Made by a program: the position numbers and the translations under genes | Notes under the pieces: generated by a model | The model's database searches: none | Seen by the model: the letters and a program-made list of their open reading frames with translations, nothing else | Told to the model about the DNA's origin: nothing | Part shown: positions 37,524 through 45,640 of the stretch, piece by piece | Layout: every line of letters starts with the position of its first letter | How positions within the stretch are numbered: position 1 is the stretch's first letter | NCBI RefSeq assembly: GCF_008642355.1 | Contig: NZ_CP029193.1 | Location: forward strand, 4,240,001-4,304,000 | Length of the DNA stretch: 64,000 bases | Direction of reading: 5' to 3' | From: Streptomyces venezuelae | GTDB lineage: Bacteria; Actinomycetota; Actinomycetes; Streptomycetales; Streptomycetaceae

Positions 37524-38498
37524 TCAAAGGGCCCGGTCGAGGATTCCTGCCCGTGCGATCAGAAAGCCGAGTTGGGCGCGGCTGTTGCTGCCGAGAGTGG
37601 CGGCGAGTTTGGCGATGTGGACGCGGGCGGTGCGGATGTTCATGCCGAGCCGGTCGGCGATCTCGGCGTCGGTGAGGCCTTCGACGAGCAGGCCGGCGAT
37701 GGCCCGCTGCCGCGTGGTGATGCCGCCCTCCGAAGGCTGCGGCGCCGTTTGCGGCCACATGGGTGTGGCCAGGCGCCACAGGCGCCAGAAGGTGGTGGCG
37801 AAGTACTCGACGAGCGCCGGGTGGCGGAGTTCGAGCGCGACGCTGCGGTCCTTGCTCGCGGGGATGAACGCCACGGTCCGGTCGAAGACGAAGAGGCGCT
37901 CGGTGACCTCGTCGAGGGTGCGGGCCTCGGTGTCGCCGTCGAGTTGTTCGTAGTACGCGAGCACGGGCAGAGAATGGCGCGTTGTGTGCTGGTAAAGGGT
38001 CCGCATCCGGCATCCACGGGACAGGATCGCCTGGTCCCGGGGGAAGACTTCGGCCAGTGTCTCGGGCGGCCGGGTGCCTCCTGGCTGGACGGCGAGGAAT
38101 TCCTCGGTGGCCTCGTTCATGGCCCGGTCGATCGCCGTGTTGATGCGGGCGAGACCGTCCAGGACGGTGATGGACGGGGCGTCGGCGCCGGGGCCGATGC
38201 GCAGGTCGAGGGAGGCGAACGGCTCGAAGGCGGCGCTGAGCCGCAGTTCACGGCGGCGGGGTGTCCGGGCGCGGCTCTCGATGGACCGGAGCAGACGGGG
38301 CAGTGCGAGGGCGGAGGCGGTCGGGTGCAGCCATTGGAGGTCGTCGCGGCTCGGCTGCAGGAGGCCGAGGTCGACGAGGCAGGGAGCGGGTGCGGCGGCG
38401 CTGTTGTGGATCCGGCCTTCGCGCAGGGCGCGGGCGTAGACGGACAGTCCCGCCTCGCAGAGCTCTTCGGCGGTGTGCGATAAGTGCTTCGTGGCCAT
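37524..38498 (-). CDS. LuxR-type HTH regulator with TrmB-like sensor (array copy 4)
   Basis: A 324-residue regulator. The N-terminal 50 residues (ELCEAGLSVYARALREGRI, then CLVDLGLLQPSRDDLQWLHP) resemble a TrmB/winged-helix unit. The middle (about 95-240) is a degenerate sensor ending in FDRTVAFIPASKDRSVALEL and LVEYFATTFWRLW. The C-terminal LuxR HTH is GITTRQRAIAGLLVEGLTDAEIADRLG then IRTARVHIAKLAATLGSNSR. It lacks a receiver domain, so it probably senses a small molecule or peptide. GGAGGGGG precedes the ATG. It is the last of four tandem paralogues transcribed away from the decapeptide-repeat gene. Confidence 0.85.
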   Translation of the reverse strand: MATKHLSHTAEELCEAGLSVYARALREGRIHNSAAAPAPCLVDLGLLQPSRDDLQWLHPTASALALPRLLRSIESRARTPRRRELRLSAAFEPFASLDLRIGPGADAPSITVLDGLARINTAIDRAMNEATEEFLAVQPGGTRPPETLAEVFPRDQAILSRGCRMRTLYQHTTRHSLPVLAYYEQLDGDTEARTLDEVTERLFVFDRTVAFIPASKDRSVALELRHPALVEYFATTFWRLWRLATPMWPQTAPQPSEGGITTRQRAIAGLLVEGLTDAEIADRLGMNIRTARVHIAKLAATLGSNSRAQLGFLIARAGILDRAL

Positions 38499-38599
38499 GC
38501 GAGCCCCCTCCTGCCTGGTTGAAGCGTCGCGATTCTATGCAGGCTGTGAGCGGCCGGGCCGGATCCCGCGGGTGGAGTGACTGCTTCTGGACGGGGGTG

Positions 38600-39574
38600 T
38601 CACCGGTCCTGATCGAGGATTGCCGACTGGCCGATGAGGTAGCCGAGTTGGGCGCGGCTGTGGCTGCCGAGGATGGTGGCGAGTTTCGCGATGTGGACGC
38701 GGGCGGTGCGGATGTTCATGCCGAGGCGTTCGGCGATCTCGGCGTCGGTGAGGCCTTCGACGAGGAGGCCCGCGATGGTCTGCTGCCGGGCGGTGATGCC
38801 GTTGTCGACCGGTGGGTGCGCCGCCTTCGGCCACATGGGGGTGGCCAGGCGCCACAGGCGCCAGAAGGTGGTGGCGAAGTACTCGACGAGGGCGGGGTGG
38901 CGCAGTTCGAGGGCGATGCCGTCGTCTTTGCTCGCCGGGATGAATGCCACGCTCCGGTCGAAGACGAAGAGACTCTCGGTGACCTCGTCGAGGGTGCGGG
39001 CCTCGATGTCGCCGTCCAGCTCTTCGTAGTGGGCGAGTTCGGGAAGGCACTCGCGGGTCGTGTGCACGCGCAGGGTCCGCAGCCGGGCGCCGCGGGACAG
39101 GATCTCCTGCTCGCGGTCGCCGATCCGCGCCTGTGTCTCGGGCGGGCGGATCGCGCCGGGCTGGATGACGAGCACCTCGTCACGGGCCTCGGCGATGGCC
39201 TGTTCGATGGCCCCCTCGATCCGGGGGAGGCCCTGGAGGACGCGGATGGCGGGGGCCTCCCCGTCGGTCGGGGAGACGCTGTCGAGTCCGAGGAAGGACT
39301 CGAAGACCGCGGTGAGCTTCTCCTCGCGGCGGCGGTGCTGGGCCACCCGGTTCTCGATGGTGCGCAGGAGCCGGGGCAGGGCCACGGCGGGCGCGGTCGG
39401 GTGCAGCCACCGCATGTCGTCCGGGCCGGGGTGGAGCAGGCCGAAGTCGATGAGGCAGGGCGCCGCTTCGGCGTCGACGGCGCGGATCCCGCCGTCGCGC
39501 AGAGCACGGGCGTAGACGGCGGCTCCCGGCTCGCAGAGGTTCTCCACTCCGTGCGGTATGTGCTCCACGGGCAC
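38600..39574 (-). CDS. LuxR-type HTH regulator with TrmB-like sensor (array copy 3)
   Basis: A 324-residue paralogue of its neighbours, same domain order: ENLCEPGAAVYARALRDGGI at the N-terminus, a central domain with VLQGLPRIEGAIEQAIAEAR and FDRSVAFIPASKDDGIALEL, and the HTH TDAEIAERLGMNIRTARVHI. It is closest to copy 4: the blocks VEYFATTFWRLWRLATPMWP and TARVHIAKLA are shared nearly word for word. Start at GTG 39574 with AGGGAG upstream; an open frame continuing to 40477 is the antisense-free extension through copy 2 in another frame and is not real. Confidence 0.84.
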   Translation of the reverse strand: MPVEHIPHGVENLCEPGAAVYARALRDGGIRAVDAEAAPCLIDFGLLHPGPDDMRWLHPTAPAVALPRLLRTIENRVAQHRRREEKLTAVFESFLGLDSVSPTDGEAPAIRVLQGLPRIEGAIEQAIAEARDEVLVIQPGAIRPPETQARIGDREQEILSRGARLRTLRVHTTRECLPELAHYEELDGDIEARTLDEVTESLFVFDRSVAFIPASKDDGIALELRHPALVEYFATTFWRLWRLATPMWPKAAHPPVDNGITARQQTIAGLLVEGLTDAEIAERLGMNIRTARVHIAKLATILGSHSRAQLGYLIGQSAILDQDR

Positions 39575-39612
39575 GTTGCGCTCCCTGCGAGTTGGTTGAA
39601 GGGCCGGTGATT

Positions 39613-40536
39613 CTATGCGCCGTTGTCCCGGTTCAGCACCCCGGACCGCCCGATGAGGTAGCCGAGTTGGGCGCGGCTGTTGCTGCCGAGGGCGGCGGCG
39701 AGTTTGGCGATGTGGACGCGGGCGGTGCGTACGTTCATGCCGAGGCGTTCGGCGACCTCGGTGTCGGTGAGACCTTCGACGAGGAGACTCGCGATGGCGT
39801 GCTGGCGGGTGGTGATGCCGTTGTCCGAGGGGAGCTGTGCGGTCTGCGGGAACATCGGGGTGCCCAGGCGCCACAGGCGCTCGAAGATGCTGACGAGGTA
39901 GTCGATGAGGACGGGGTTCCGGAGTTCGAGTGCCTTGCTGCGGTCCTTGTTCGCCGGGATGAACGCCACTCTCCGGTCGAAGATGAAGAGCCGCTCGGTC
40001 ACCTCGTCCAGGGTGCGGACCTCCCTGTCCCCCCGCAGCCGTTCGTAGTGGGCGAGGACGGGCAGTGAGTGCCGGCTCGTGTGCTGGTACAGAGTGCGCA
40101 TCCGGCCACCCCTGGAGAGAAGGCGTTGTGCGATCGGGCGCGACTGTTCCAGCCCTTCGGCCAGCCGGACTCCGCCCGGCTGGATGGCGAGCGACTCCCG
40201 GCTGGAGGAGTCCAGCGCTTCGGCGACGGCCTGCTGGATCCGGGGGATTCCGTTCAGGACGGTGACGGAAGGGTCCGTGACCGGTGTCCGGCCGTCGCGG
40301 GCGATCGTCATCAGTGGTGCGAACTGCTCGGCCAGACGTGTCTGGCGGCGCATTTCCCGGGTGATGCGTTCCTGGAGGGCTTCGCGGAGCCGGGGCAGGG
40401 CGACGGCGGGCGGGGCGGGACGGAGCCGGGCGGGGTCCTCCGGGTCCGGGCGCAGCAGCCCGAACCGGACCAGGCACGGCGTGGGTTCGGCGTCCTCACG
40501 CGGTACGTGACGCTCCCGCAGGGCACGTGCGTACAA
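39613..40536 (-). CDS. LuxR-type HTH regulator (array copy 2), unusual start
   Basis: A paralogue of about 307 residues with sensor block FDRRVAFIPANKDRSKALEL and HTH TDTEVAERLGMNVRTARVHI. No ATG or GTG is available at the expected N-terminus. The homology (ELCEAGSELYARALRERHV) extends about ten codons upstream of the TTG at 40536, where only a CTG is in frame before the paralogue-like sequence ends. So it either starts at TTG or CTG, is translated by coupling with copy 1 (whose stop is about 50 bp upstream), or has lost its start. The rest of the domain structure is intact. Confidence 0.7.
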   Translation of the reverse strand: MYARALRERHVPREDAEPTPCLVRFGLLRPDPEDPARLRPAPPAVALPRLREALQERITREMRRQTRLAEQFAPLMTIARDGRTPVTDPSVTVLNGIPRIQQAVAEALDSSSRESLAIQPGGVRLAEGLEQSRPIAQRLLSRGGRMRTLYQHTSRHSLPVLAHYERLRGDREVRTLDEVTERLFIFDRRVAFIPANKDRSKALELRNPVLIDYLVSIFERLWRLGTPMFPQTAQLPSDNGITTRQHAIASLLVEGLTDTEVAERLGMNVRTARVHIAKLAAALGSNSRAQLGYLIGRSGVLNRDNGA

Positions 40537-40588
40537 CTCCGAACCCGCCTCGCACAGCTCGTCCGGCCGTGGGAGTGGGGTTCGGGGG

Positions 40589-41578
40589 TCACTTCGGGTG
40601 GCCCGGGTCGAGGATGCCCGACTGGGCGATCAGATAGCCGAGCTGGGCGCGGCTGCCGCTGCCGAGAGCGGCGGCGATCTTGGCGATGTGGGCGCGGCAG
40701 GTACGGACGTTCATCCCGAGCCGCCGGGCTATCGCCTCGTCGACGTGGCCCTCCACGAGGAGTTTGGCTATGGAGCGCTGGACTCCCGTGATGCCGTCGG
40801 TCGACGGAGCGTACGGCGCCTCCTCGAGCAAGGGGGCCGCTCGCTGCCAGAGTTGCTCGAAGACGTTGACCAGGTACTGGACGAGCCCCGGGTGGCGGAG
40901 CTCGAGGGCTGCCTGGCGGTCTTCGCGGGCCGGGATGAAGGCGACGGTTCTGTCGAAGATCATCAACCGCTCGATGAGCTCCTCGAGAGTGCGCACCTCG
41001 ACTTTCCCTTGCCGCATGTGCTCGGCATAGGCGATGGTGGCCTGACTGTGCCGCGCGGTGTGCTGGTAGAGCGTCCGCATCCGGATGCCGCGGTCGAGGA
41101 TGCGCTGACTCTGCTTCACGGCTTCGGTGACGATCTCCTCGCTGCGGCCCCCGCCGGGCTGCACCGTGATGACCTCCGACTGGCACTCGGCTATCGCGAC
41201 TTGTATGGCCGCGTTGATGCGACTCCCGCCCTCCAGGACGGTGATCGAATGCACGGCGGGCCGGTCCTGGGCACTGATGGCCATAAATGGCTCGAAAGTG
41301 TCGGAGAGTTCGTTCGCGAGGGTCCTCCGCTCCTGAATCTCCCGCTCGATGGGCCGAAGACGCTGCGCGAGGGCAGACGTCGGCGGAACGGGGCGGAGCC
41401 ACTCGGCGTCGTCGGGATCGGGATCGAGAAGAGCGAACTCCATCAGGCAGGGAGCGGCTTCCGCTTCCGCTCGCCGGATGCGTCCGGCCCGCAGCGCCGT
41501 GGCGTAGAGCCGCTTTCCCGCGTCACATAGTTCGGCCATGGCGTGTGGATGTGCCCTAATTGGGCTGTTTGTTGTCAT
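40589..41578 (-). CDS. LuxR-type HTH regulator with TrmB-like sensor (array copy 1)
   Basis: A 329-residue paralogue, the most diverged of the four: MAELCDAGKRLYATALRAGRI, central block FDRTVAFIPAREDRQAALEL and LVQYLVNVFEQLW, and HTH VDEAIARRLGMNVRTCRAHIAKIAAALGS. A GGGGGG run precedes the ATG at 41578. It is the first gene of the array and is divergent from the decapeptide-repeat gene with only 107 bp between the starts, so a shared regulatory region is likely. The lower GC at its start suggests a more recently acquired part. Confidence 0.84.
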   Translation of the reverse strand: MTTNSPIRAHPHAMAELCDAGKRLYATALRAGRIRRAEAEAAPCLMEFALLDPDPDDAEWLRPVPPTSALAQRLRPIEREIQERRTLANELSDTFEPFMAISAQDRPAVHSITVLEGGSRINAAIQVAIAECQSEVITVQPGGGRSEEIVTEAVKQSQRILDRGIRMRTLYQHTARHSQATIAYAEHMRQGKVEVRTLEELIERLMIFDRTVAFIPAREDRQAALELRHPGLVQYLVNVFEQLWQRAAPLLEEAPYAPSTDGITGVQRSIAKLLVEGHVDEAIARRLGMNVRTCRAHIAKIAAALGSGSRAQLGYLIAQSGILDPGHPK

Positions 41579-41685
41579 AGCTCCACCCCCCAGGGTCCTG
41601 AACGTGCAGGAACATGATGCATCGGTCCTGTGGTGTTCGCATGGCTGAATGAGCCATCGTCTTTGAAGGCCGGGGGAGAGTCGCT

Positions 41686-41952
41686 ATGGAAGTGAGGACG
41701 AAGCCCGCTATGCGCAAGGGAATGCTTCGCTCGGTACTTGTCTGTGCCTTCTCCGTTGGGTTGGCTGCCAGCGCCTTCAGTGGTCTCGATGCGCTCTCGG
41801 ACGCCGATGCCGCTGCAACGCACGCGTCGGAGTCGGGTGTGACGACCCAGGATGTCATCTGGAGCTCTTCCGCCAAGGGGGACGTCGTATGGGCGTCCGG
41901 CGGTAAAGGCGATGTCATTTGGTCGTCCGTTCCCAAGGGAGGCGCGGCATGA
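41686..41952 (+). CDS. Secreted small protein with three DV[I/V]W decapeptide repeats
   Basis: An 88-residue protein. Residues 1-43 form a Sec-type signal (basic MRKGMLR, hydrophobic SVLVCAFSVGLAASAF, cut likely after DADAA). After a linker come three exact 10-residue repeats: DVIWSSSAKG (56-65), DVVWASGGKG (66-75), DVIWSSVPKG (76-85), then GAA. The period is strict, with Asp, Val, Trp, Ser, Lys and Gly invariant. The mature peptide would be about 45 residues. GGGGGAG precedes the ATG at 41686. The stop overlaps the Rieske-like gene start (ATGA). No known family is recognised; a secreted signal, a modified peptide or a surface peptide are possible. Confidence 0.75.
   Translation: MEVRTKPAMRKGMLRSVLVCAFSVGLAASAFSGLDALSDADAAATHASESGVTTQDVIWSSSAKGDVVWASGGKGDVIWSSVPKGGAA
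41851..41940 (+). repeat. Three in-frame 30-bp repeats
   Basis: Three tandem 30-bp units encode the decapeptide D-V-[I/V]-W-[S/A]-S-x-x-K-G. At DNA level the units differ at many third positions (gatgtcatctgg, gacgtcgtatgg, gatgtcatttgg), so the amino-acid pattern is better kept than the DNA, which points to selection on the peptide. Confidence 0.8.
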
Positions 41953-42305
41953 GCACCCCTCCCGACGACCGCACTTTCCGTCGTGAAATGGCCACCGCCT
42001 ATCGATCCGGATGGCACTTCATCGACCTTGTGACCGCGATCCCCCACCGCGGCGACTCGTTGATGGTGACCCTGCTCGGGGAGCCGATCGTCGTCACCCG
42101 TGACGACGAGGAGGAGATCCGGGCCTACCGGTGCCTGCGGCGGCCCCGTGGGGCGCCCCAGCCCGTGCGGTGTGCCATTCGGTACGGGATGGTCTTCGTC
42201 AATCTCGACCGGCGCGACCACCAGATGGTCGGGCAGCAGGGCCAGCAGGACCCGGACGCCGTGAGCGTCCCGGACAACATCACAGCCACCCCCCGCAGTG
42301 CCTGA
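41949..42305 (+). CDS. Rieske-like small protein lacking the histidine ligands
   Basis: A 118-residue protein. GWHFIDLVTAIPHRGDSLMV followed by LLGEPIVVTRDDEEEIRAYRC resembles the start of Rieske [2Fe-2S] oxygenase domains (W-x-x-v ... G-E-x-x-V-V-x-R-D-x-x-x-x-I-R-A-x). In true Rieske proteins the next blocks are C-x-H and C-x2-H. Here they read Cys62-L-Arg and Cys75-A-I-Arg with RPRGAP and YGMVFVN around them, so both Cys are kept and both His are replaced. It may bind a different cofactor or none. The start overlaps the peptide gene stop by four bases, implying a joint function. Confidence 0.6.
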   Translation: MSTPPDDRTFRREMATAYRSGWHFIDLVTAIPHRGDSLMVTLLGEPIVVTRDDEEEIRAYRCLRRPRGAPQPVRCAIRYGMVFVNLDRRDHQMVGQQGQQDPDAVSVPDNITATPRSA

Positions 42306-42418
42306 CGCGATTCCCCCGTCGTTGTAAATCGCGCAGGTACTTCCCCCAGCAGCGGCGCCACCGTGGACCTGAACACGGTGGCGCCGCTGTGGTGTGTAGC
42401 GGGGGAGGGCCCGGGTAC

Positions 42419-43021: not shown

Positions 43022-45640
<2,619 letters not shown>

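Follow-up and report, generated by a model that had tools for sequence, protein, structure and literature searches.

What does an exported-looking peptide made of a short repeated motif do, and which of the genes around it does it work with? The question is raised by a locus of Streptomyces venezuelae, analysed here within a window of 64,000 nucleotides (NZ_CP029193.1, positions 4,240,001 to 4,304,000, forward strand; coordinates below are window positions). A sequence-only reading had coupled the peptide to the downstream gene for a small Rieske-like protein, as a modified or processed peptide system. Comparative analyses point instead to a regulator gene that is divergent from the peptide gene and went unmentioned in that reading, and it is there that the strongest functional evidence lies. 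The DxxW precursor and this regulator are probably a peptide-signal and receptor (pheromone) pair; the evidence consists of the gene pairing, the structure of the peptide word, a co-variation centred on the regulator's sensor, and one putative specificity residue whose rule was confirmed in further loci.

Gene order and the Rieske-like protein

The features of the locus are collected in Table 1. The 88-residue precursor has, as had been proposed, what looks like a signal peptide: a Lys/Arg-containing N-terminus is followed by a hydrophobic stretch, judged by eye and with a simple rule. The coding sequence does not begin at 41579, the start previously given; an alternative GTG start at 41692 fits the V/MRTKP N-terminus with which relatives begin. 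With overlapping genes considered, the only gene overlapping that of the precursor is the one for the 118-residue protein, and the ATGA overlap described earlier is present. The downstream hairpin is strong (z −5.2), and scans for T-run terminators and for sigma-70 promoters returned nothing. A minus-strand gene lies between the hairpin and an 872-residue open reading frame (43022–45640), which we take to be clpB.

Table 1. Features of the DxxW locus, in window coordinates.
Feature	Position	Strand	Remarks
Precursor peptide gene, 88 aa	41686–41952	+	Signal-peptide-like N-terminus, then three DxxW copies
DVIW copy 1, residues 56–59	41851–41862	+	
DVVW copy 2, residues 66–69	41881–41892	+	
DVIW copy 3, residues 76–79	41911–41922	+	
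Divergent regulator R1 (P0003, 329 aa)	40589–41578	−	TrmB/PLD-like sensor and C-terminal LuxR/GerE HTH; candidate receptor for the DxxW peptide; putative specificity residue V136
Candidate operator between the divergent genes	41596–41620		TCCTGAACGTGCAGGA palindrome overlapping CAGGAACATGATGC
Degenerate Rieske-fold protein (P0002, 118 aa)	41949–42305	+	ATGA overlap with precursor gene
16-bp perfect inverted repeat	42350–42389		Possible terminator of the precursor–Rieske-like unit
R2, tandem regulator paralogue	39613–40566	−	Start approximate
R3, tandem regulator paralogue	38606–39577	−	Bounds from alignment
R4, tandem regulator paralogue	37524–38498	−	

Matches to the 118-residue protein (E ≤ 1e-3) were found in 169 of 199 genomes of the same genus; read from the individual rows, about 158 of these are strong, five intermediate (1e-18 to 1e-12) and six weak (6e-6 to 4e-4). 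Searches at family and class level gave no non-Streptomyces match better than 6e-9, with coverage of about residues 5–89. Gene order was compared in the best 80 of 441 confirmed loci. In all 80 of these, a precursor with an export-type N-terminus lies directly upstream of the Rieske-like gene and an orthologue of the divergent regulator is present (about 62–87% identical), with further paralogues nearby in most; the Rieske-like protein is 73–99% identical to the window copy. The clpB translation has matches in 79 of the same 80 (97.6% identity in L035), the exception being L078, where the sequence stops soon after the Rieske-like gene. Automatic detection returned 67 of the 80 precursors, with that of L048 in the wrong frame; for L048 and the other 13, the precursor was picked out by eye in translations of three frames. 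Four divergent loci (L153–L156) likewise have the regulator, the precursor and the Rieske-like gene in this order, and their precursors end in QQDPTWG or QQDPAWD.

The sequence CAGGAACATGATGC (41607–41620) is found upstream of the precursor gene in 79 of the best 80 loci, in 74 of them with the CCTG arm, and may be a strongly conserved local control site. It has exactly one exact site in the 8.0-Mb genome. With up to two mismatches, the operator box has 96 sites versus 67 for a reversed-pattern control, a moderate excess. A regulon reached through this box was considered and is not indicated, as the exact sequence does not recur in the genome.

The 118-residue protein in the window keeps Cys62 and Cys75 and carries Arg at both Rieske His positions, in agreement with the earlier description, and Arg replaces both His in 30 of 30 loci inspected. 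The ligands of a Rieske cluster follow the pattern C-x-H...C-x-x-H, which this protein lacks. Its predicted structure was expected to be a Rieske fold and probably is one: each of the 50 PDB entries listed as matches appears to be a Rieske oxygenase or ferredoxin, the best at E 0.011 and none at 0.001, for a model (pLDDT 72.6) built from 11 sequences. The Pfam Rieske score is 15.2, under the cut-off of 20.3, and similarity to glycine betaine monooxygenase was found at profile positions 40–103. Many residues, including the last six and the two Cys, are invariant among 11 aligned members. The fold is like that of the Rieske [2Fe-2S] domain of ring-hydroxylating oxygenases, but the 118-residue protein stands alone, has its His ligands replaced by Arg, and in four divergent relatives is also missing the first Cys.

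The repeated peptide word

The precursor in the window does contain three back-to-back repeats (DVIWSSSAKG, DVVWASGGKG and DVIWSSVPKG), as had been noted, but the decapeptide unit assigned to them does not hold, since the conserved core spans only four residues. The copies share a constant D and W and are not identical, the middle one being DVVW. The K-G that was thought to belong to the repeat trails the copies in the window precursor and is absent from most other precursors listed. Positional identity was compared for copies within one precursor and between precursors, using 77 unique precursors including that of the window (L058, L089 and L097 are missing from this table). Sixty-two have at least two copies, 14 have one, and L048 has none owing to the frame error. 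Copy number ranges from one to eight in the best 80 loci and reaches ten in one further locus.

Identity within and between precursors was 1.00 and 0.68 for D, 0.96 and 0.25 for position 2, 0.95 and 0.18 for position 3, and 1.00 and 1.00 for W. Outside the tetrad it was 0.68 and 0.14 at +1, 0.27 and 0.19 at +2, 0.40 and 0.23 at +4, and 0.36 and 0.16 at −1; beyond the tetrad and +1, the flanks gave 0.19–0.40 between copies versus 0.12–0.24 between precursors. Strong conservation therefore stops at W or W+1, which rules out a decapeptide and defines the unit as a tetrapeptide, (D/N/E)-x-x-W, possibly extended by one residue to DxxWx. The pentapeptide would also fit several single-copy precursors whose C-terminus lies exactly one residue past W (DTRWD, DSKWD and DTVWD).

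Random variation of repeat number and residues, which would have spoken against a selected peptide, is not the pattern found: words vary between species and seldom inside one precursor. All copies are identical at positions 2 and 3 in 51 of the 62 multi-copy precursors, compared with a mean of 2.2 and a maximum of 8 uniform precursors when copies were permuted 1000 times; the 11 with non-identical cores include that of the window. Synonymous codon differences were found in 102 of 204 copy pairs at position 2 and in 98 of 203 at position 3. Since about half of these codons differ between copies, a recent DNA duplication is not the source of the repeats, and the window precursor gene contains no DNA tandem repeat. 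Together, these two observations indicate that selection apparently acts on the peptide, as was suggested from the codons of the window precursor.

The divergent regulator and its co-variation with the word

By Foldseek and by sequence profile, R1 has the N-terminal winged helix and PLD-like sensor of TrmB-type regulators. Its predicted structure (pLDDT 84.3, pTM 0.59) matches archaeal TrmBL2 best (E 4e-13), and its profile matches TrmBL2 over residues 44–250 (E 2.3e-12) and LuxR-type HTHs at about 258–324 (GerE 1fse, E 2.8e-9). In Pfam, the curated TrmB model matched one of five distant regulators, under the cut-off (E 0.0092), and did not match R1, and for GerE, P0004 and the five distant regulators score over the cut-off and R1 under it (18.8 versus 23.5 bits).

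Changes in the regulator were compared with changes in the word, allowing for species divergence. The species clock was clpB DNA, for 77 loci: L042 was dropped for its split regulator frame, L078 for lacking clpB and L103 for a short clpB; 76 loci were used for comparisons that need the Rieske anchor, one locus without the anchor being dropped. A precursor with mixed words was represented by its most frequent or its first word, four words were added manually, and the sensor bounds (115–250) were chosen ahead of the structure model. Thirty different words occur among the 77 loci.

Given clpB, word difference is associated with sensor distance at a partial rank r of 0.437, and 0 of 2000 permutations were as high. 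The corresponding values are 0.336 for the HTH, 0.336 for the N-terminus, and a weak 0.193 for the Rieske-like DNA (again 0 of 2000). The sensor association remains at 0.290 given clpB, the Rieske-like gene and the HTH, whereas once the sensor, clpB and the Rieske-like gene are removed the HTH retains 0.073 and the N-terminus 0.010; the Rieske-like gene falls to −0.068 once the sensor and clpB are removed. Similarly, at clpB distances of at most 0.069, the sensor distance is six-fold higher in pairs with different words (0.167, n = 40, mean clpB 0.055) than in pairs with the same word (0.027, n = 17, mean clpB 0.046), and the Rieske-like DNA differs by 0.043 and 0.032, respectively. HTH and N-terminal distances in close pairs are four- to five-fold higher with different words.

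A scan over all columns singled out residue 136; the rule was then noted, and 60 further loci were fetched as a test. In the discovery loci, Met136 accompanies D/N-S-x-W in 33 of 33 cases and Val136 accompanies D/N-T-x-W in 16 of 17 (Leu in one), a total of 49 of 50, and Leu136 accompanies Pro at position 2 in 7 of 7. The Ser/Thr switch occurs in matched backgrounds (SG/TG, SA/TA, SR/TR, SK/TK, SV/TV and NSS/NTS). On the clpB tree there are 12 changes each for the Ser/Thr word and for residue 136, with agreement in 9 of 9 supported independent pairs; when the tree is one of the regulator with column 136 left out, 6 of 6 such pairs agree. The next-best regulator column reaches 0.82 (0.78 if columns are limited to six states or fewer), the best Rieske-like and ClpB columns reach 0.74 and 0.76, and label shuffles at most 0.82. 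The 60 further loci yielded 58 precursors automatically (none for L358 and L371), 55 of them not identical to the discovery set, although some come from close relatives of the discovery species. There, the rule held for 33 of 33 Ser/Met and 15 of 15 Thr/Val combinations (48 of 48), and for 2 of 2 Pro/Leu. In the regulator model, residue 136 begins a strand. This co-variation supports a sensor in which residue 136 would read peptide position 2, with Met for Ser and Val for Thr. A second, electrostatic rule was rejected: among discovery loci Arg145 occurred with 0 of 9 words having R, K or H at position 3 and with 54 of 68 others, but in the further loci it occurred with 5 of 10 R/K/H words, and without R, K or H at position 3 in 29 of 45.

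The tandem paralogues mostly have Val or Leu at 136 regardless of the word, which points to the adjacent R1 as the cognate regulator. Three more regulators of the same family stand in tandem beside R1 in the window, within 37524–40566 on the minus strand; because the paralogues' residue 136 in other species is independent of the word, R2–R4 may read something else. Regulator paralogues appear fragmented in several species (L042, L044, L056, L080, L090 and L110), and in L042 the first regulator is split over two frames, which suggests turnover of the tandem array.

In the proposed mechanism, the precursor would be exported through its signal-peptide-like N-terminus and cut by proteases, which would set free a single kind of peptide of four or five residues, DxxW(x), several times over. 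A general oligopeptide permease would take this peptide up (no gene for a transporter or protease was found tied to the DxxW locus), and in the cytoplasm it would bind the TrmB/PLD-like sensor of R1, for which the co-variation argues. The LuxR-type HTH would then act on the shared promoter region (41579–41685), and probably elsewhere too. Residue 136 would read position 2. Different species use different words, in the manner of pherotypes. The degenerate Rieske-fold protein would be an accessory component whose role is likely to be largely independent of the word.

Co-variation could also arise if regulator and precursor were swapped together as a block, their products making no physical contact. 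The genes are adjacent and divergent, and 49 word changes on the clpB tree reduce to 34 on the regulator tree; moreover, close pairs with different words are further apart in the HTH and the N-terminus as well, so that block exchange may contribute. As a full explanation, however, it is very unlikely: the adjoining Rieske-like gene hardly follows the word, the HTH and N-terminal associations are nearly gone after the sensor, and residue 136 alone predicts Ser or Thr across backgrounds, in all of the new precursors and in every supported independent pair of the regulator tree from which its own column was withheld. The idea of the earlier reading, a RiPP-like modified or antimicrobial peptide processed by a Rieske-like redox enzyme, draws on the overlapping genes, the two invariant Cys of the 11 aligned members, the repetitive precursor and the conserved Trp. 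We consider it hardly tenable, given that the His ligands are gone in all 30 loci inspected, the first Cys is dispensed with in the four divergent relatives, the gene follows the word weakly, and Trp-motif peptides face related regulators even where the genome has no match to the 118-residue protein. Redox modification of the Trp thus finds no support, and nor does a redox role of the protein in general.

In a third alternative, the peptide would tell a hypha about its own secretion, proteolysis or growth state and would not be meant for neighbours. Such self-sensing would suit the conserved position near the heat-shock gene clpB (79 of the best 80 of 441 loci) and the lack of an uptake gene tied to the locus, and all of the evidence above concerns the fit of peptide and regulator, none of it travel between cells. 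Repeatedly switching, species-specific words with a matching receptor are nevertheless typical of pherotypes, which the 12 Ser/Thr switches resemble, and a private sensor has little reason to diversify. Self-sensing therefore appears rather unlikely, and the pheromone pair is retained as the preferred reading.

Known systems and related regulators

That the repeat peptide has no described family agrees with the literature: a search of open-access full texts, covering listings and the starts of abstracts, returned nothing on a DxxW system. Peptide pheromones with cytoplasmic receptors are known mainly from Firmicutes, where the receptors of the RRNPP family are TPR proteins. In the RRNPP systems (Rap-Phr, PlcR-PapR and Rgg-SHP), an exported propeptide is likewise encoded adjacent to a cytoplasmic receptor-regulator and the signal is a short linear peptide. 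The DxxW locus has this pairing in 80 of 80 loci (the best 80 of 441), with export predicted from sequence. In place of a TPR peptide-binding domain, however, its regulator has a TrmB/PLD-like sensor and a LuxR/GerE HTH, its precursor contains many copies of one word, and its host is Streptomyces. The DxxW system would thus work like the Firmicutes peptide pheromones without being a member, the defining receptor feature being absent. Species-specific words, too, are part of the comparison with RRNPP quorum sensing (PMC10075063, in excerpt). In RopB-LCP, a short peptide is encoded beside a cytoplasmic regulator and peptide codes differ between species (PMC10518010, in excerpt); LCP is leaderless, whereas the DxxW precursor has a signal-peptide-like N-terminus, and the receptor families differ. 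The archaeal TrmB and TrmBL2 regulators share sensor fold and order with R1, but the title of the solved TrmB sensor structure (2f5t) calls it a sugar-binding domain, whereas R1 adds a C-terminal LuxR HTH and its ligand would be a peptide.

Within Streptomyces, S. coelicolor imports a 655-Da factor through an oligopeptide transporter, BldK; this small peptide occurs outside the cell and is presumed to be a signal for aerial growth (PMC9640686, in excerpt). It has no known link to the DxxW locus. The DxxW system might supply candidates for the BldK substrate and similar extracellular peptides. SCO3660 is cotranscribed with clpB in S. coelicolor (PMC2687793, a paper on HspR, in excerpt). A multi-copy peptide word read by TrmB/LuxR regulators across most Streptomyces would give the main antibiotic producers another language, and would point to peptides as ligands of many LuxR-type regulators that are now orphans. 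The predictions are concrete, namely the short peptide to which each species should answer and the residue whose swap should change the answer.

Pairing of this kind may extend beyond the DxxW locus. The precursor profile was run on 31 Streptomyces genomes, namely 20 of the 30 in which the Rieske-like protein had no match and the 11 in which its match was weak or intermediate. Seven of the 31 gave a hit, always a weak one (best E 4e-5); the profile's reach is limited, as it missed the single-copy precursors of L153–L156 in four of these genomes. Members of the regulator family were present in 26 of the 31, and several face small export-type open reading frames with ANYWE (twice), GNIWA, EGNYWG or DTGWGC. 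The regulator family was also found in 61 of 61 genomes at family level (10 Streptomyces) and in 121 of 246 at class level (22 of the 121 Streptomyces), with up to 18 members per genome.

A loose criterion for Trp-containing reading frames proved too noisy and was set aside, with divergent matches at 24 of 80 loci, 10, 13 and 10 at three control positions, and 11.2 in shuffled sequence. A stricter Trp-motif rule, the same for all positions, was written after the loose rule had been applied to these 80 loci, so that its results for them (43 and 37) are partly blind. Of the regulators that had prompted the idea, 6 of 22 and 13 of 31 have a divergent peptide, compared with 1 of 22 and 4 of 31 at control positions, all on the 3' side, and 0.10 and 0.05 in shuffled sequence. 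In the newly fetched Streptomycetaceae set, divergent export-type Trp-motif peptides occur at 12 of 43 regulators, of which a few (L237 and L270) are doubtful by eye; controls gave 0 for 5' co-directional, 0 for 3' convergent and 3 for 3' co-directional positions, and shuffled sequence 0.00. In the class-level set, none of the 37 regulators has such a peptide in divergent position, and three have one 3' convergent. The peptide–regulator pairing is thus clear at the level of gene arrangement in Streptomycetaceae, for a minority of regulators. The balance tips towards TrmB/PLD-LuxR regulators of Actinomycetes reading linear peptide pheromones that contain Trp, a large class so far undescribed, of which the clpB-linked DxxW system would be the Streptomyces-wide member, with residue 136 setting position 2.

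Several of the 3' matches themselves resemble Trp-motif peptides. In the class-level loci L284, L287 and L295, repeat peptides (DTSWG twice, DTAWE twice, and DGNTWP repeated) are encoded 3' convergent to the regulator. Additionally, small proteins of related look, by eye, recur divergent from distant regulators (L193, L197, L198, L203, L204, L206, L211 and L212) and could possibly be an accessory factor; that of L212 starts with MYLVHLHLHPP.
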